Below are positions 11,701 through 23,000 of a DNA stretch of 64,000 nucleotides, piece after piece. Position numbers and translations under genes: made by a program. Positions within the stretch are counted from its first letter, which is position 1. Each line of letters starts with the position of its first letter. The DNA comes from Ectocarpus siliculosus (lineage: Eukaryota; Sar; Phaeophyceae; Ectocarpales; Ectocarpaceae): assembly GCA_000310025.1 (NCBI GenBank), contig FN649727.1, forward strand, positions 2,212,762 through 2,276,761, written 5' to 3'. Under the pieces are notes generated by a model that was not told where the DNA came from, did not search any database, and worked only from the letters and a program-made list of their open reading frames with translations.

Positions 11701-12602
11701 AGACGTACAAAAGACGCATGTACCACATGCGCACGTAGAGGGCAAGTATCAACAACTGTAATACGGTGCACCCATAGCTTCATACACGGGCAGTGAGCTA
11801 CAATAGAACACGGGACATACCGACGTTCGTGCACGAACGGGAACGTCACGACCTTAAGATTTGAAATACCTGGTAGACAGGGAGGGTCTCAGATGTCCGA
11901 ATTTTGGCAAGTTGGCGCGCCTTCGCCCAGTTCCATAGGACAAGGTTCCACTCAGGAGCCCCACCTTGAGCAAGCAGCAGATTACTATCGTGACTAAAAG
12001 CCAGGCTTACGCATTGACTTCCGTCCTCCTCAACTTGTAGTGTCTTCCGTATCCGGAGCGTCCGGAGGTCGTAAAGTGAGACCTTTGTGCGTTCGTTGAT
12101 AGCATGCGGCGAGAATGCGCGTTTTGGTCAACGGGTCGGTGTTTGTGTTCAATCAATCGCCGAAGTCACTTCTTAGATTACATGCGCATGGCCATAATAA
12201 GTAGGACGAAAACACACACATGGGCAGGCGGTTAGCGCGGCCGATACTAATAATAAAAACACACATGGGCATACAGATCTACTGTAGTGCAATTTTGTGT
12301 CGTCTATGCGCCACTCGCATGTAATGAGATACACTCACCGTCGGCTTGTCGCCGTCTTCAGCCAACGCGACGAATCGCGCAGAAGGACACAGCGTCATGG
12401 CTGATATGGATTTTGATACGTCTGATCCATGGATGAAGCGCTGCTTTCCCTCTAGGATGTTGTAGATAACAATGTTATGTCCGGCCACGTACACGATCGT
12501 GACTTGGTCAGAAAACGCAACATCGTTGGCGCGGCTCCCTTTCACGCCGAAGACAAACCTGTGAGATAAACAAGAAGACATCTCTCTCACCAAAAAGGTC
12601 AC
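2725..12602 (-). CDS. CFAP57: Cilia- and flagella-associated protein 57 (WDR65 family)
   Basis: This axonemal protein links to inner-arm dynein regulation in motile flagella. Exons (minus strand, 5' to 3'): 12339-12581 or -12602, 11870-12082, 11372-11653, 11088-11213, 10322-10846, 10042-10184, 9700-9916, 9325-9501, 8838-8975, 8646-8707, 8356-8488, 8133-8209, 7797-7955, 7515-7632, 7057-7218, 6805-6930, 6317-6448, 5962-about 6108, 4228-4308, 3846-3932, 2725-2841. Phases agree across the joins. The total is about 1,156 residues, close to animal CFAP57 (about 1,250). Residues 1 to about 640 are WD40 repeats (for example [13 protein letters not shown]); the rest is coiled coil with family blocks such as [17 protein letters not shown] and [13 protein letters not shown]. 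The tail has [10 protein letters not shown]. The start is uncertain: ATG at 12581 or 12602 reads straight into the first exon, but TTTATCTCACAG there could be an acceptor for an upstream exon. Two splice oddities are listed under findings. Confidence 0.93.
4710..5123 (+). repeat. Dispersed ~400-bp repeat, copy 2
   Basis: This is the second copy of the element at 105-515, in direct orientation about 4.6 kb away. It sits inside the CFAP57 intron between 4309 and 5961. The two copies therefore bracket the last three CFAP57 exons (4228-4308, 3846-3932, 2725-2841), which rules out reading them as LTRs of one intact retroelement. Confidence 0.85.
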
Positions 12603-12973
12603 TCCGAGTATTTACCGCCCGCTTTGCGGAAAGGGGATACTTGGAGCCGAAGGAGTTTTCCGAGCGTTTTATTAATACCGTACATGACCCTTTCTCTCTC
12701 CCTCTCCTCGCACGCGGGCTTGCACCTTCTTTACGCTTGTGGGTGCTGTTCTCCCGAAAATACACGACCGTTTCGATATCAGAAAACTATAAATTGTAAC
12801 GCCACCCACAGAAGACATTATGAACACCGTTATCCCCTTTTTTGGTACCCCCCCTCCTCGCAACCAAAAAAGCCCCCGTGGGCAAACACGTTGGTGAGCC
12901 GGAAGACGGCCTCAGCTTCTCTGTTCTGCCACGTGTGTGTGTCGACTACCCAGCACAATCGTGGCGTGTGAAG
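12603..12973. promoter_or_regulatory. Shared 5' region between CFAP57 and COG1
   Basis: About 370 bases separate the proposed start codons of CFAP57 (minus) and COG1 (plus). The interval must hold both 5' untranslated regions and both promoters. No TATA box or other element can be assigned with confidence. An extra CFAP57 leader exon could also lie here. Confidence 0.4.
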
Positions 12974-15900
12974 ATGTATGGACCTCCACCTGCCACTGTT
13001 GGTGCCATGGTCTCCCCTGAGCGTGCATTGGAGCACATGTCTGTGGAGAAAGCATGGAGTTTGCTCGACACGCTTTCTTCGCAGGTTGTGGGCAAGCAAA
13101 CGGAGCTGCAGGTGTGCGCACAGAACATTGCACAAGTACTGCTCTTCGCCCGATCCCCCCACGCACCGAGTACTCGCAAGTTCGCAAGCCGCCAACTCGC
13201 ATTGATTGGTACTCGTTACTGAGCTTTCTTCCGTGTTCAATCGTTCCAGCTCATGGTGGGTTCCCGGTACCACGAGCTGATCGAGTCTGCGGACAGCATC
13301 GTATCCATGAAGGAGACAGGGGCGGAGGTGCTCGGCCTCCTGCGGAAATTCCCCCAAGCATGTTCCAACGTGCTTCAGCAGGTGTGCAGGACCGGACCCT
13401 ACATGTAGCTACCTCACAGAATATCAAGGCGAACAAGTTCTTTTACGTACGCGCCCTCGACAGGAGGGCGTATAAGCTGGACCGCAGCAAGTCGATGTAC
13501 GTGCAAAGTGCACATTCGTGTACGTAAGCTGCATTCCAGGTCCTCGACTATTGTACGCCCCCATTGGCCGGTGTTTGTTCCGTGTCTGGTATGTATGATA
13601 TGCATATGATATGATCGTACGCAGGCATCAGACACAGGCCTGGAATTTTAACTTTTACTGCTGTTTCTACTTTCGTCTTGCACAGCAACAGCTGTTGCAC
13701 TCCGGGACATGCTTGTTACTCCGTACATTGGACGACTCGGCCCGTACGAGCAATTTGACTGATTTTGAACACAACCGCCAGAGCACCAGACAATGCACAC
13801 GAGACACACAAGAGCAGTCGGAAGACATCGGGAAAAACAGAAATCGTTGATTCTCGCACAGGGAGGTATAATACAAGTAGTAGAGTCTGCTCAAAGCGTG
13901 CATATCATGAGTCTGCCTCCACACGCCTCCCTTGAAATCAAGATAAAAATCTAGTCTATATTCAAGTCAAGAGAGCCAGAATGGCACGCGCTTAGTTGAG
14001 GTCAGTTTTGCGTTAGAACTCCCTCACGCGTGTTCTACTGATGATATCACGTGAGGACACCCGACAGCAGCGGGGTGTATGTGTTGGCGCGCTCGAGTCC
14101 GCTTCTTGGGTGGTTATTTCGAGGTTCGCAGTAGCGGCCCACAATCTCCGCACATTGGACCGACACCCAGTGTCCTGTATCCTGTGCTGCTTCTCCTGAA
14201 TTGCGGGAAGTTGTAGCTGATGGCACTACCCACTGCTGACGACCGCGGTTCAGGGGTTTACGGTGCGTGGCGGCGGTGAGCACGGCTGTGACAAAGCTGG
14301 GTTACGGCGAAAATTACGGACTGTTTGAGAGACAGCTGCGACGTTCGGTATTTCAGCCTCCAGTAGCAAACCCGAACGTGCATCACATACGCCGTCTCTT
14401 CATGCTGTCCTCTACTGATAACAGCAGTAGAATTCATCCGATCTAAGCGGCGGGCAGGTCGCTTTGTTTTGTACTGAATTAAGTATGTAAATAGAGCCAG
14501 TGTCAGAAGGAGGTTGTATGCCGTCCGTTACGCTTTTACCACTTTTTCCATACATTGCGCTCCATGTTCAATGCGTTGCAGCAAACTGTAATGATGTCGA
14601 TGGAATTTGAATGCGCGGGCCGTTGAAGTCAAGATGTTAATACAGTTACAGTAGCGCCCCCGATTGAGCACCAATATTTTTAAAAGAAACACGGCTCAAA
14701 TTTCCAAAAAAATAAGAAAATAGGGTTGTGAAACATAGCTTGTCTGGCCCACAGTGTAAGAAACGTCTCAGTACGAAAACAGAGCGACCGTTACCCTACT
14801 ACATAGACGAGGGGTTTCGGGTGAGTGTGTCGAAAAAGAAACACCCCACAGCTCCTCTCTCCCTTTCCCCCTCTCAGTAGTACTGTACGACGAGGGAGGA
14901 GGAGTCGGTTTTTTCAAGCATGGTTGAGTACGGGAGGCTAGGAAAGGCAGCGGAATTCACTTTTATTTGGCACGTTGTGCAAGCAAGCAGAGGAAACAAG
15001 AAATTGCCGATTGTCAGCGGGATTCAGCAGCACGAAAAGATAAGCAGCTTTACATAAGAAGTTGAACAGCGTACGCTGAGTTTTCAGCCCACAATATTAG
15101 AATTTGAGGCTGGACCGGAAAATGGCGTCTCAAACGTGGGCGCTAACTGTATTACATTTCCGATCAAGCGTTTCCGCCGCCGCTCGCTCGCACCCGCCGT
15201 TTCAGGTCCCTTCGTCGTTATCTCCAGGGACCAGTGATCTCAGCGGCACCGACGTTCGTGAAGACGCGGCCGCGAGACATGTAATGGAGGTGAGTTGAGC
15301 TCGGAGCCCTACCTTGAGAGGCGCATGCCACCTCTCGTGTCAGAAACAACAGAGTGGCGCCTTAGGACGCCAGAGCCGACAGCTGTACAGTTGTAGTGAC
15401 AAGCACATAGTGCATCTCATATCTCAGGAATATTTAGTGTCCAGCTCTGTTTTGACATGGGCGGAACACCGCTCGGTGTTTTCCACTCTCTCGAATAATA
15501 TTACTTAACCGTAGCCCTTGATGTCGATACCCAGGTGGTTCAGCTCATGCTCCATGCGCCAGCGGCCATGTGGGCTGCTTTGGACTCGAACAAGGTCCTT
15601 GAGGCAGCCAATCTTGTGCTCAGATGCCGAAGTAGCTGGACCGATTTGTCCAGCACTTTCTCCACGGGAGTGGACTCCGGTGTCGCTGCCTTCTTACGTG
15701 GCCATGTGACTTACGTCGAGCAGTTTCCTCGTCGCATCCTGTCGGCTGGGACTCGCCTGTTGACGCGTTCTTGCAACACACAAGAGACCGCTGGAGCTCT
15801 CACGGCAATACTTCAGCTGCAGGCGCTCGAGGATGCCAACCCCCTGCGGTGAGCACTAGCGGAGTCCCTAACGTACTCGTTGTTTGCGATGTGCCGATTG

Positions 15901-18513
15901 ACCGCGGTTGGAGTTAACTGCTGTTTTTTATTTTCATCATGTCCACTTTCGCGTTGTGTTTCAATTTTTAGGTGCTTGTTGGAGCTCCTTCTTCTGCGCA
16001 GAGGTGGAGCTGTGGTAGCGATGCTTACGCGGGCTACGAAGGAAGAAAATTCTTCTGACATAGAACAAGTATTGCACGCCGCTGTCACCACCGTGCAAAG
16101 GACGATTGTGGATGTGCACGCCATCTTTGCGCCTGGGCGAAACGGAAGCTGCATGCTCGAGGACCTTGCCCACCCCTCATGCCGCAGTCAAGCAAGCCTG
16201 CGGTTGTCAGCGCATGACGCGAAGGACATGTGCACGACCTGGTTGTCTGTGCTGACTCCGAAAATTCGTGTTTTTGGCGAGCGTCTGCTCAGAGCGACCG
16301 GTGATACCAACTCTCTGGCGCGCATCCGCGGCTCTCTGTGGAAGGTAACCCATGGAGACGGAGCGTGGGCCACACCAGCAGCAGGAACACGTGCAGGGGG
16401 TAGCATTAGAGCAGTGCAGGGGCTGATGTGGATGGAAGCCACCTCATTCGCAGTGGATGTATCTGCTTGGGATGGTGGTACGAACGGCAGTACGCGCGCT
16501 TGGGGACAGGACGTATCTTCCCCTCAGCTAGATTTGTGGTCCCTGCTCTTCAGCCAGATTTTTGCAGACCTGGCAGAGGCCCTGCTGAAGGACTCGCTAG
16601 CTAGCATCCGGAGAGATGTGGAGTGTCGCCTTGACTCGATACTGCTTGCCATCACACGGAACGAGACGGGGCAGGGGGTGCAAGAAGCAAGAAGTTTCTC
16701 CGGAAGTCACCGGCAGGAGCAACCCCATGCGCTCATGGCACACGATATTCTCGCAGCCGCCGACGCAGTAGTGTCACTACTGACATCGGAGATCCGCAAT
16801 CTTGCGGGAGATGCGACGTGTTTAACAGAGCGCGGTGATCAAACTGCGGCAGATGCGCTGAAAACTTCTTTTTATCTCCTAAGCGTGGACATGGCGGCGG
16901 GCCTCGCCAATCACCTTCGCATTGCGCTGCAGGAGATTCATGCCTGCATCAAGTCCGCTGCGGAGCAGGAACGACGATGTGTGCCATACGGAGGCCGAAT
17001 TGGGGACCTTGAGAATGCTGTTAGCAGCTTTGCTGATGCAGGGCTCTTGATCGGCCGAGTAGCATGGATGTTGAATGGCCGAAGCGGGGGACCTTTGCAG
17101 TATGCCCTCACACCCCCGGCATGCTTTGCCCAACGGCGACGTGGGCGCATCGAGGAGCAGCAGCTAGAAGCAGCGTTTGTGATAGCGGACACGAATGGCG
17201 ACGGTGTTGTTGATACCGAGGAGGCGGCTGAGGCGCTTCAAGCTGTATCCTTCGGGGCATCAGCGGCACTTGCTGTCGACCCTAGCCGGTACGCATCGTT
17301 CACCCTGAACGAGTTCTTCCTGTTTGCCACCCGGCTCCTCGAAGAACAACGGCCGCGTCAGCACTTGACCAGTTGTCTTGATACTCTTTTGTCGGAGTCC
17401 CTGGCAGTGTGGTCGGAATGGGCTTTGGAAAAATCTGCTGCTCTCCTTACTGAGGGATGCAATGCGATGGTGATTTTGTGTGCCAACCCTGGGATGACCA
17501 ATGACTTGTGGCGGCAGGCCCATGGCATATGGGAGGACAAGACGATTGAGCTTGATCGTGACGACGGAGATGGCATCCAAGAAACCGTGCACTTTCCCAT
17601 CATGGTTTCTCCGGCTATTCTGTGCTACATCGAGGGCGTAGCCGCTGAACTGAGCCGGATATTGAGTACAGCCGACCTCACAGAACGTGCCGTGACTGAG
17701 AGTTGCAGCGGATGGAAGACACAGGATGCGCAGCCGTCTGGAGACGAGGAACGGGCCTTGGGTTGGTCGGCACCGGGTAAGGCCACTGGCCAGGGGGCGG
17801 CACGCTATGCGAGATCTCTAGCTGCTGTCCGAGCGTCAAGCGATTTGAGCCACGCACTGGTTGGACTTTGCGAGGGTGCACATTCGGCAGCGGCACAAGC
17901 GTGCGAGGCGGCACAGCTTCAGCTACTGTTGGATGCGCTCTTCTTACAAAAGTGGGTTTCAGATTCTCCAAAATCATCTCCGTCGATGGAGTCGGTTGTT
18001 ACAACTCTGTGTGATCTGGTAGATCCGATCAACTTGCAGATTTACATGCCGCACCTTCAGACGGCGGCATCAGCGTGCTGGGCGGCGTGTCACACGCCTC
18101 TCTCTTTGATTTTCGAACAAGCAATCCCTTCTAGCAGTGCGCCATCCAGCGCTTCAGTATCACCGGACGGGGCACTGGGTTCGTCGTCTAGCTTTATTCC
18201 CTTGGCTCCGAAAGTGCGTCGGTTTGAAATTCTCCCTCTCTCTCTAGAAGTGGTGCGACTACAGCATCCGAACGGCTCATCCCGAAGTAGAAACTCGGTA
18301 GGGATAAAGTCTGGCGCACCAGCAAGCGGGGACGGGCCAGGCGCCTCCGCTCAGGCTCGTGGTTTAGAAGCTGGAAGGCAAGCTCTGGCCGGGCTAGGTA
18401 GCGTGTTGAGTGCACAAAATGCGCATGTTCAGAGCGTTTTCGGGGCGGCATCGCTGTTTCTAGGTGGGAGGAATCGTAGGGGTGAAGACGGAGATGGGCA
18501 TAGTGAACGTTAA
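12974..18513 (+). CDS. COG1: Conserved oligomeric Golgi complex subunit 1, with an EF-hand insert
   Basis: COG1 belongs to the eight-subunit COG tether that guides retrograde vesicles to the Golgi. Exons: 12974-13111, 13250-13381, about 15206-15289, 15535-15848 and 15972-18513. Phases agree and the product is about 1,069 residues (human COG1 about 980). The family N-terminus is clear: after a short leader comes MVGSRYHELIESADSIVSMK, the COG1 signature, then HAPAAMWAALDSN and the following helices in exon 4. The last exon is unusually long (846 codons). Residues about 629-640 form a canonical EF-hand loop (DTNGDGVVDTEE), followed by a second, degenerate EF-like helix (SFTLNEFFLFATRLLEE). I know of no calcium-binding loop in COG1 elsewhere. 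Exon 3 has alternative acceptors upstream. Intron 2 (13382-15205) holds dispersed repeats. Confidence 0.92.
13710..13955 (+). repeat. Dispersed repeat A, copy in COG1 intron 2
   Basis: The segment matches the reverse complement of about 40835-41080. Shared landmarks include a stretch reading gagcaccaga, then gagacacacaaga, then aaaaacagaaatcgttga, then a pyrimidine/purine block with tttgaaatcaaga. Divergence is visible throughout, so this is an old pair of a dispersed, probably non-autonomous element. Confidence 0.75.
14269..14431 (+). repeat. Degenerate copy of the 40.5-kb inverted-repeat element
   Basis: The sequence from cgtggcggcggtgagcacgg to ctactgataacagcagtag matches about 40587-40755, the inner part and right arm of the inverted-repeat element at 40492-40772. 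The left arm is only weakly recognisable around 14034. It lies in COG1 intron 2. Confidence 0.7.
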
Positions 18514-18861
18514 GGCTTAACACTGACATTTGTAGTGTGAATTTTCTTTCCTGCACTTGCTCAGGGGGTCCCTTCATCCCGAAGTAGAAATTCGGTAGGG
18601 ATAAAGTCTGGCGCACCAGCAAGCGGAGACGGGCCAGGCGCCTCCGCTCAGGCTCGTGGTTTAGAAGCTGGAAGGCAAGCTCTGGCCGGGCTAGGTAGCG
18701 TGTTGAGTGCACAAAATGCGCGTGTTCAGAGCGTTTTCGGGGCGGCATCGCTGTTTCTAGGTGGGAGGAATCGTAGGGGTGAAGACGGAGATGGGCATGC
18801 ATGGTGAACGCACTGACATTTGTAGTGTGAATTTTCTTTCCTGCACTTGCTCAGGGGGTTC
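18277..18861 (+). repeat. Tandem duplication of the COG1 3' end
   Basis: Positions 18277-18573 and 18574-18861 are two adjacent copies of about 290 bases that differ at few positions. The first copy carries the last about 79 COG1 codons, the stop codon and the start of the 3' untranslated region. The second lies wholly downstream of the stop. The main difference is at the stop: copy 1 has gaacgttaagg, whereas copy 2 has gtgaacgcactgac and lacks that TAA. The high identity suggests a recent event. Confidence 0.92.
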
Positions 18862-20048
18862 CGGGCTTCCATCACGTTTTCTGCTTCTACTTTCAACCAC
18901 GATGTGAATACGCATCTCGTGTGAAGAGCCATGTGTTTTGGTTACAAGTCACACGAGGTTTGTGCTTCTTGGCTGTGAAGGTTGTTACCACACCGCGTCG
19001 TACTCCGGAGTTTACACCACACGATGGCGCACAGAAAGCAGCAGAAGGTGGCACAATGTAGCAAGAGGACAGATCACATCGTGTGGCAACTGTGGGTAGG
19101 CACAACGAAAATGTCCGAGTATTTTTATCATGCGTTTGTTCGATCGTTTGGTGCATATTCTTCTGCGCGTGAAGATATTATAACTTCCGCTCATGTCCTG
19201 TAGTTTATTCTGGCTGAGCCTTGAGTTCGGATGCTCTGTTCTGGTGGATGGCACATGGCCGCTCTAAGGTGCTACTTGATTGTAGGGGTCCGTATCCATC
19301 GGCGTTCACAAACCTTGCGGAAGGTCTTTATTTACTCCACTGTTGAGCATAAAATTCTCAAGTGCGGGCGATGTCCTGGTGTGTATCGCATTCATGTGTT
19401 GATCGTGGTAATGGCTTGCTTAATTACGCCCACTATGAAAGTCCATGCCTTCATTGCCATTCCACGGCCAGGATGTTCAGCCCATCTACGGGGAAAGGTA
19501 AATCATCAGCTCGTCATCCCCATGTGGCGGCCAGCCAAAAGCCGCCCTATGCGAACGGGAATATGCAGCCGCAGCGAGCACCCGGCATTTACAAAATAAT
19601 TTGTAAACTTTGAGCGCTTGGGGAACACACTGCATCATGTTATCGGTGTGACCGGTTTCACTTCCGTACGACGGTGTGCTGCAACAGCTAAATTAAATCC
19701 ATCGATTGCATCCCAGAAAGGCTTGCTCGTAGAGGGTAACAACGCTTCGATTTCCCGCGAAGGCATAAAATCCAGTAAATCACACGAGAGTGTCAGACCA
19801 ACTCATGAAATACGTGCTCAAAAGAACTCGACCCTACCGGAATATTCTTTTCGCCTCGTCAAAGAGAAGCACATCACGCCCAAAATATCAACACAACCAA
19901 ACGATGCCTCACGAACAACTGTCCGCTCGCACCAACACGACAAAGTAGACACAGACGAACTCGAACCGCTTCAAAGGTCAGCCGCAAGTTGGGTGGAACG
20001 CAAGGTATGAAAACGAACAGCAACCTTCAATCTACTTCACTGATCACA
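18862..20048. other. Intergenic DNA between COG1 and eEF3 (3' to 3')
   Basis: Two convergent genes end on either side. Short open frames occur on both strands, but none has splice-bounded exons, a signal peptide or a recognisable motif. Part will be 3' untranslated sequence. I see nothing else here. Confidence 0.6.
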
Positions 20049-23000
20049 TCAGTAAAGATCGTTCTCCGTTGCAAACTCGTCCTCGTCACTCTCGAGCTCG
20101 GCGCCTTCGTTGATCTTCGCCTTAATTCGCTTCGCCAGTGCCTTGTGGTCGCGCTTGGAGAGCTTCTTCTTGGGGCCCTTCACCTTGGATACGTTCCCTG
20201 CGGCATCCGTTACTTCCTTGATCACAGCCTGGTCGCTGATCTTCTCATCCTGGCGTTCCATCCACCCTGCGTCACCCTTCGTCTCCAGCCGGCCCGAGTC
20301 CATCACCCACTCCTCCGGGCAGACCGTGCTCACGAATTCGTTGTTGTGTGAGATGATCACTACACCTCCCTGGAAATCGTCGATGGCGCACGCAAGTGCC
20401 CCAAGAGACTCACGGTCCAGGTAGTTGGTGGGCTCGTCGAGGATAAGGATGTGAGGCTGGTTCCACATGGCAGCAGCCAGCACAACCTTCACCTTTTGCC
20501 CGCCCGACAACGCCTGCATTCGGGTGTGAGTGGCGAACTCTGCCGCCAGGCCGCAATCCGCGAGGTGCTTCTCCACGTTGGAGGAGGACAGCGGTCGCAC
20601 GTACAGGCCGCTTGTCTGGGCGATACGCGCATCGATGGCCTTGATGGCCTTCCCCCATCCCTGCTTCTCGAGCTTTTTCCTGGGAAGGTAGTTGGGAGCG
20701 TCGCTGGCCACGGTGTACCGAACCTCGTACAAGTACTCCTTGGTCTTGTCCTGGCGACGGCCGCCGAGGAGCTCGGCAACAACCTAATGCGTGGTGGCGA
20801 ACGAGGGATGTGACGAGGAATAAAAAATTAAGCACATGTTGGTCGAGAATTCCAGTATGTAGAGAAAGTGTACCGTGTACTCGACTCCGAACATTGCAAA
20901 ACCTTTACATACCCGCTAGGGAGGCTCCAGATTGACGAATGAACTCGCGAGTGTTAAACCAAATTAACCACAAGATACACAAATGCCCTGTGGATATCAT
21001 GGTTCTTCAGGCCCGTCAAGAACTCATGATTTGCATATAGCTGTCTCGTGCGACATCGTCTCACAGCAGTGCAAGAGAGAAAAACAACCGCGCCACTAGA
21101 ATACGCTCGACCTGGGTTAGTTGTCCCAAAAAAAGACGGCCGAATTACGGCCACTACAACAAATTGGTTTGATCGTTGTCGCCTTCATAGGGAACCATAC
21201 CTTTAACGGTAGCGTGTGGAACCTGTAATTCAGCGCCGTGCGTACCTTCTTAGCCTTCTTCGCCACGCCGGATTCTTCATCGGTCCACGTGACTTCAAAC
21301 TGTGTCTTCTGGAGCTTTTCTTCCTCCTCGGTCACCACCATGGAAACCTTCACCAACGATTCCTTGTCCTGCGATTACGTAAGACAAGCATTGGCGTTTC
21401 ATTTTCAGAGAACAGACTCCATTGGCGTTCCCAGTTCAGATATCAAGCTCGGCAACGCCAAGAAACTCTGGGCACGAGCAAACGAAAACTACAGGCGGAT
21501 AGAAACAGCACACGCGAAGAAACCTGTTCGGCAAACATACCTCGCCGTTGTTGGCGAACCGCCACCGGATGTACTCGTTCGGGGTCTTGTTCATGTGGTC
21601 CTCGATGTGGTGGAAGGCATGCTGCGCCAAGTAAGCTACTCGCGCATTGGGATGCCGCCACACGTCGCCGGTCTGCGGTACAACCTCGCCAGTCAGCACC
21701 TTGATCATGGTCGACTTCCCCGCGCCGTTCTCGCCCACACACGCAACACGCGACGACAGAGAGACTTGGACAGAGATGTCGAAGAGGGTGGGCACGGTGT
21801 TGCCGGGGTACGTGAAGTCGCAGTGTGCCATCTTCATCAGCGCCTTACCCTTGGACTTGACGCCCTCGATCGGCCCGGGCTGCGGGAAGTTGAACTTCAG
21901 CTTGGACGCCTTGAGCTCGAAGAACGACTTGGCCGTCGGGTTTACCGCCACAAACTCGTTCAGGTTTCCCTTGAAGTTGACAAGCTTCAGGTTCTCGATC
22001 GAAAGGATGTGGCTGCAGCAGTCGTTGAGGAGACCAGAGTCGTGCGACACCATGATCGCCGTGACGTTGGTGAGGCTGTTGAGGTAGTTCTTCACCCACG
22101 CCACGTTGATGACATCCAAGTGGTTGGTCGGCTCGTCCAGCAAAAGGATGTCCGCCTTCTGGAGCATCGCACGTGCCATGGCCAGCTTCATGCGCCATCC
22201 TCCCGACAGCGTGGACACCGCGTGGTTAGGCTTGGCCTTCCCGTCTTCGGTGAAACCGACCGTGGCCAGCACCTCCGTCACCTGCGCACGGTCGATACCA
22301 ATGCGCTGGATCTTCTCGTCCGCCATCACGTAGTCGACGCACGAAAGATGAGACTGCTCGCCTTGGATGTCCGCCTCGACGAACACCGTGCGCACCTCGG
22401 ATGGGTCGGGGAATCCCTCGACAGAACCGTTCGCGATTGCCCGCATCAGGGTGCTCTTGCCAGAGTCGTTCCCACCAAGGAGACCGTAGTTCTTACCGCG
22501 CTTCAGCCTCATCTTGGTGTTGTGCAGGAGAATTTTGGTGCCTGCAACAGAACGGAAAACGCACAATATCCAAACCAGTTGTTAGGCGCTTGACGCTATT
22601 TGCCCAGTGTTTGTTCTCATTTCCCGACTTGCATAAGCGGGCTCGAATTATCGTTTTTACCTATATCCATGTGATAAATCCCCAACTCGGTCGGACCAGC
22701 GTTCACAAAGCGAGACGACTGATACAGAAAGTTGGAATGATGGGACACAACGTTGGACTCGTTCGTCGAAACTAGCATGCAAAATACTTGCAACACACAT
22801 TTCGCGGTTCCCCAACTCGTACTCGTTCAAACAGCGAGACGTTTGACCCACCCAGCTTATTGACAGTGGAAACTAGGCTGGACTGTTTGGACGCAGAATG
22901 ATTTACGTGGCACAACTCTTAACCACGGAGCTTCTTACCGTACGCCAGGGTGAACTGGCAGTTGCAAAGCTCCTCCGCATCCTCGTCATCGTCCACAGCC

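Follow-up and report, generated by a model that had tools for sequence, protein, structure and literature searches.

We found that the genome of the brown alga Ectocarpus siliculosus encodes a COG1-like protein that contains, as far as its sequence goes, a real EF-hand-like stretch. The feature lies in a window of 64,000 nucleotides (contig FN649727.1, positions 2,212,762 to 2,276,761 of the forward strand), and all coordinates below are those of this window. As a tentative explanation, we favour a COG1 (lobe A) subunit that has an EF-hand-like helix-loop-helix between the helices of its rod; the unit has all of the calcium ligands of an EF-hand, and any partner hand would be degenerate. Metal may tune the bridge between the lobes or stabilise the rod.

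The joined gene model has five exons on the plus strand, keeps a single frame throughout and encodes 1069 amino acid residues, to which a small exon in the 1.8-kb gap at 13382-15205 might add. The exons and the C-terminal part of the gene are as follows.

12974..13111, plus strand: exon 1 of the COG1-like gene, in which the VPS51/EXO84/COG1 N-terminal domain begins (joined model; Pfam)
13250..13381, plus strand: exon 2 of the COG1-like gene, with the remainder of the N-terminal domain (joined model; Pfam)
15206..15289, plus strand: exon 3 of the COG1-like gene (GT/AG, frame continuity)
15535..15848, plus strand: exon 4 of the COG1-like gene (GT/AG, frame continuity; an in-frame stop lies directly 3', in 15849-15971)
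15972..18513, plus strand: exon 5, the long last exon with the EF-hand-like stretch, 846 full codons and the stop (open frame 15853-18513)
17917..18243, plus strand: C-terminal COG1-like stretch, residues 872-980 (BLASTP to a provisional human COG1 segment)

The open reading frame at 15853-18513 runs without a stop and contains the calcium-type loop. Because 15849-15971 has an in-frame stop and GT/AG at its borders, 15535-18513 consists of two exons. A sequence-only reading of this DNA had assigned the loop to a single long last exon; this was right for the open last exon at 15972-18513, but not for 15535-18513.

The Pfam model VPS51_Exo84_N passed its cut-off at residues 29-87 of the joined protein (28.4 bits versus a cut-off of 24.2, E 1.7e-6). 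Near the other end, residues 872-980 were aligned by BLASTP to a provisional segment of human COG1, the only subunit compared; the alignment spans 117 columns, of which 27% are identical (E 7e-6). The same provisional segment gave no matches among the solved structures (PDB) at E 0.1. The N-terminal domain and the C-terminal match bear out the earlier description of the gene as COG1-like, and COG1 is the best name for it, short of proof, given that the C-terminal comparison was made with the provisional human COG1 segment alone. A search of the genome for the VPS51/EXO84/COG1 N-terminal domain recovered two other loci and missed the present locus, probably because the domain is split across two exons here. 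Exon 5 gave one full match in the genome, plus a partial downstream match to query residues 768-844; no second copy of COG1 was found in the genome, in which only the stretch matching these residues recurs, just downstream.

A tandem repeat lies directly downstream (repeat units 18277-18572 and 18574-18862). In this repeat, the 225 nucleotides at 18277-18501, close to where the COG1 frame ends, have a copy that is 99% identical at a spacing of 297, and 52 nucleotides past the COG1 stop (18521-18572) have a copy that is 98% identical at a spacing of 290. The frame of the downstream copy ends differently from the COG1 frame; the copy may therefore have arisen by recent duplication, or it may provide another 3' end.

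As for the neighbouring loci, two open frames adjoining the COG1 gene (11846-12611, minus strand) match WD40/beta-propeller families, all under the cut-offs; they probably belong to a WD40 protein gene whose transcription runs away from COG1. A partial ABC-type ATPase is encoded at 20049-20783 (minus strand), and its closest solved structures are yeast New1 (E 1.6e-57) and elongation factor 3 (E 2.5e-50); eEF3-type factors were for a long time regarded as fungal. The genome has 87 matches to chlorophyll-binding proteins at E <= 0.001, which fits a photosynthetic organism and is compatible with a brown alga. Outside the window, such matches form clusters on contigs C92, C488, and C16 of this genome (G000), and 10 of those on C92 share one score.

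The EF-hand-like stretch and its parts are located in exon 5 as follows.

17140..17352, plus strand: EF-hand-like stretch, residues 613-683 (a 69-aa part of it scores 24.1 bits with EF-hand_1; AF2 pLDDT 71.9 on 71 aa)
17146..17187, plus strand: predicted helix leading into the loop (entering helix), residues 615-628 (model helix 3-16)
17188..17223, plus strand: calcium-type 12-residue loop DTNGDGVVDTEE, residues 629-640 (joined model; pattern match)
17215..17277, plus strand: predicted exiting helix of the EF-hand-like unit, residues 638-658 (model helix 26-46)
17278..17313, plus strand: possible degenerate second loop DPSRYASFTLNE, residues 659-670 (position by pattern; no profile matches)

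The loop DTNGDGVVDTEE has Asp at position 1, Asn at 3, Asp at 5, Gly at 6, Val at 8, Asp at 9, and Glu at 12. Oxygen ligands are thus present at positions 1, 3, 5, 9, and 12 together with Gly6, and the protein has a single match to the strict pattern, which starts at residue 629. The sequence-only reading had given the same residues and the same place for the loop, residues 629-640, and the numbering is identical in the joined model. It had also called the EF-hand canonical, a word that suits the loop as far as its ligands go. It does not suit the motif as a whole, in which the Pfam gathering scores are not reached and Ala stands on both sides of the loop (directly before it and at position 13). 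In EF-hands, the residues adjoining the loop on either side are usually large and hydrophobic. When PROSITE PS00018 was applied, positions 1-12 matched, and the full pattern failed owing to Ala at position 13, where it asks for a hydrophobic residue.

The strongest alternative to our explanation is a chance calcium-like loop, namely an acidic turn between two helices in a fast-evolving part of COG1, with neither metal binding nor retention, and we consider this quite possible. We composed the strict loop pattern with the loop already in view. When the COG1-like protein was shuffled 20,000 times, a fraction of 0.0001 of the shuffles matched it; a looser pattern, consisting of positions 1-12 of PS00018, matched in 0.0103 of the shuffles. 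Across all six reading frames of the window, DTNGDGVVDTEE was the only match to the strict pattern in 123,845 residues, and the chance expectation by proportion is about 0.01 per window. For a whole proteome, we estimate from a typical gene number that somewhat less than one strict loop is expected by chance, and therefore the bare loop is suggestive but no proof. The number of windows screened, which was large, and the Ala on both sides of the loop also favour chance; that the five ligands, Gly6, and Val8 all fit together speaks against it.

The profile searches bear on the same alternative. EF-hand_1 (Pfam) scored 24.1 bits with the native 69-aa segment and 18.6 bits with the whole protein, under its gathering score of 25.4, and the remaining Pfam EF-hand models that matched were all under their own gathering scores, as a chance loop would allow. 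When the loop was kept and the flanks were shuffled, three of four controls still matched EF-hand_1 (12.5, 14.0, and 18.3 bits; none was listed for the second control). Compared with the shuffled flanks that scored, the native flanks thus raise the score by about 6 to 12 bits, which argues against chance, although the score of the whole protein barely exceeds that of the best control. In the case of EF-hand_5, the native segment gave 21.9 bits and the whole protein 17.2 bits, and all four flank-shuffled controls matched (15.5, 13.8, 15.9, and 21.6 bits); the flanks count for little with this model. None of five full shuffles matched the EF-hand models. The earlier proposal of an EF-hand in COG1 is supported to the extent that the stretch scores as a single hand, above the flank-shuffled controls with EF-hand_1, but hardly above them with EF-hand_5 (21.9 versus 21.6 bits).

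Using phmmer, the 69-aa segment found EF-hand proteins, with whole-sequence E-values of 1.3e-6 for SCaMC-1 and 1.1e-5 for troponin C that sum several hands of these multi-hand targets; for a single stretch, the best E was 0.087 among the three alignments shown. When the whole protein was compared with solved structures, the best E was 0.22; the 27 sequences with E-values up to 10 were all EF-hand-named, and no COG subunit was among them. The EF-hand_5 control that came close to the native segment and the weak single-hand phmmer E-value count against our explanation and in favour of a chance loop. The SCaMC-1 regulatory domain, troponin C, and hippocalcin share the D/N/D/D/E ligands and Gly6 with the stretch (whole-sequence E 1.3e-6 to 3.3e-5 with the 69-aa segment). 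They are multi-hand proteins (several stretches of each were aligned), whereas the present protein has one good loop, scoring under the cut-offs, in a tether subunit.

No close source EF-hand gene was found elsewhere in the genome by an exon-by-exon search, which weak matches can escape. The best other matches had E-values of 0.04 and 0.71, and recent capture from another EF-hand gene of the same genome was set aside within the reach of that search.

Structure prediction of the 71-aa stretch by AF2 without an alignment gave a model of moderate confidence (pLDDT 71.9, pTM 0.46) with helices at residues 615-628 and 638-658, which flank the loop, a short helix at 660-663, and a last helix at 668-682. 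Helices on both sides of the loop were predicted in two AF2 runs (158 aa and 71 aa). The 158-aa model, made without relatives, was helical with a mean pLDDT of 40, and bears on the CATCHR helical-rod fold only at that confidence. The three best Foldseek matches were EF-hand structures, over 28-39 columns, or about one hand, but every Foldseek E-value was above 1 (best E 1.2). When the rows were re-aligned with VIA-align 2, a non-EF helical protein, pilotin InvH, came out on top (Z 5.4). Next came the penta-EF domain of calpain-3, aligned over 68 residues at an rmsd of 3.9, and a RuvB row, both at Z 3.9. Modelling of the region had been suggested together with the loop. From these models, a single EF-hand-like unit is plausible.

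The predictions also bear on a degenerate EF-hand pair that would serve as a structural or docking module. The first hand would be constitutively metal-bound (or bound to Mg2+) or unbound, and the pair would act as a spacer or a partner site without calcium signalling. We regard this as unlikely. The segment DPSRYASFTLNE retains D1, F8, and E12, though without Gly6 and most ligands, and the two loops start 30 residues apart, compared with 36 in calmodulin; the alignment to calpain-3 over 68 residues is also in keeping with a pair. Nevertheless, the second half alone matched no Pfam families, no bridge between the two loops was seen in the 71-aa model, and calpain-3 is outranked by an unrelated helical protein and equalled by RuvB. 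The degenerate second segment of the earlier reading is present as letters at 17278-17313, but a second hand has no profile support.

We also examined whether the stretch has the character of coding sequence. A codon model was trained on the remainder of exon 5 (15973-17050 and 17401-18300). In five held-out 150-nt windows (starts 17050-17248), the codon log-odds were 0.10-0.24 per codon in frame; in the upstream intron, the best value among 27 frame-windows (nine windows) was 0.02, where low values are favoured by the background base composition having been drawn partly from the same intron. Two other frames also scored: an off-frame window at 17050 reached 0.10, and a reverse frame at 16900 reached 0.12. 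The coding signal across the loop is good, short of perfect. Splice donors were scored with a consensus matrix. The gene's four real donors have values of 3.6-7.5, whereas no GT from 16900 to the loop exceeds -0.2; over 16900-17420 the highest value is 1.5, at 17289, which is 3' of the loop. Thus, although a frame-preserving intron is compatible with the DNA alone, it is very improbable that the stretch is a retained intron or part of another gene, since the loop lies inside one open 2.5-kb exon with the codon usage of the gene, the coding signal is unbroken over 17050-17400, the weak upstream donors are far below the real ones, and COG1-like sequence flanks the stretch on both sides, the open frame of the stretch continuing into the COG1-like part downstream.

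To place the stretch, we aligned the protein with provisional human COG1 sequence by using three modes of MAFFT. The EF-like stretch was always upstream of the helix starting LLSESLAVWSEW, which was aligned to LLQQSVMGYQVW. Opposite the stretch, the modes differed; the global mode placed a human helix and linker there, and the other two opened gaps inside the stretch. BLASTP left the EF-like part unaligned. Human COG1 shares the VPS51/EXO84/COG1 N-terminal domain, and its provisional segment is 27% identical to the C-terminal stretch. The provisional segment shows no EF-type loop, in an alignment that is uncertain at the EF-like part. In a search for relatives, a sequence pattern had no matches in IMG/VR (viruses) and 16 matching stretches, none confirmed, in the GTDB genomes (prokaryotes); both collections are uninformative on other algae.

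COG is usually regarded as a constitutive tether. Among relatives of tethers, Munc13 has a MUN domain with C2 calcium modules and acts at the plasma membrane. The likeness would be a helical-rod tether with a calcium-sensing addition; the difference is that the addition consists of C2 domains at the plasma membrane in Munc13, and would be EF-hand-like and at the Golgi here.

According to one report, the last 227 residues of human COG1 are required for binding to COG8, and lobe A is bridged to lobe B by COG1-COG8. Linking the two subunits covalently was termed inhibitory, though the hybrid still replaced single subunits in one rescue assay, and in the proposed model the contact between lobes A and B has to be transient (PMC4935880). 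Under our explanation of an EF-hand-like unit in the rod, residues 613-683 would fold as an EF-hand and the unit would bind Ca2+ or Mg2+. Metal binding would alter how the COG1 rod is angled, or how stiff it is, ahead of its C-terminal part. The metal might thereby tune the transient lobe A-lobe B bridge, a step that we draw from the human requirement for the last 227 residues in COG8 binding and lobe bridging, or might merely stabilise the rod. A calcium-modulated tether is possible. A stronger form, in which COG1 in the algal lineage gained a working EF-hand upstream of the COG8-binding part, and in which lobe A joins lobe B under the direct control of cytosolic calcium, which would thereby gate intra-Golgi vesicle tethering, seems improbable to us.

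In the titles and abstract openings of the literature searched, no calcium site is described for any COG subunit. The passages covered of PMC8290106, PMC10746232, and PMC4860414 mention neither EF-hands nor calcium, and those of PMC4935880 do not mention calcium. The literature searched yielded no work on the COG complex and the Golgi in a brown alga and, on EF-hands and calcium in Golgi vesicle trafficking of brown algae, a single paper, which concerns a red alga.

If relatives share the loop and it really binds calcium, Golgi traffic could be tied to calcium. A calcium-responsive COG1 would let the model of a transient lobe A-lobe B contact (PMC4935880) be tested. It would also be a direct link from calcium signals to Golgi glycosylation or the secretion of wall polymers.
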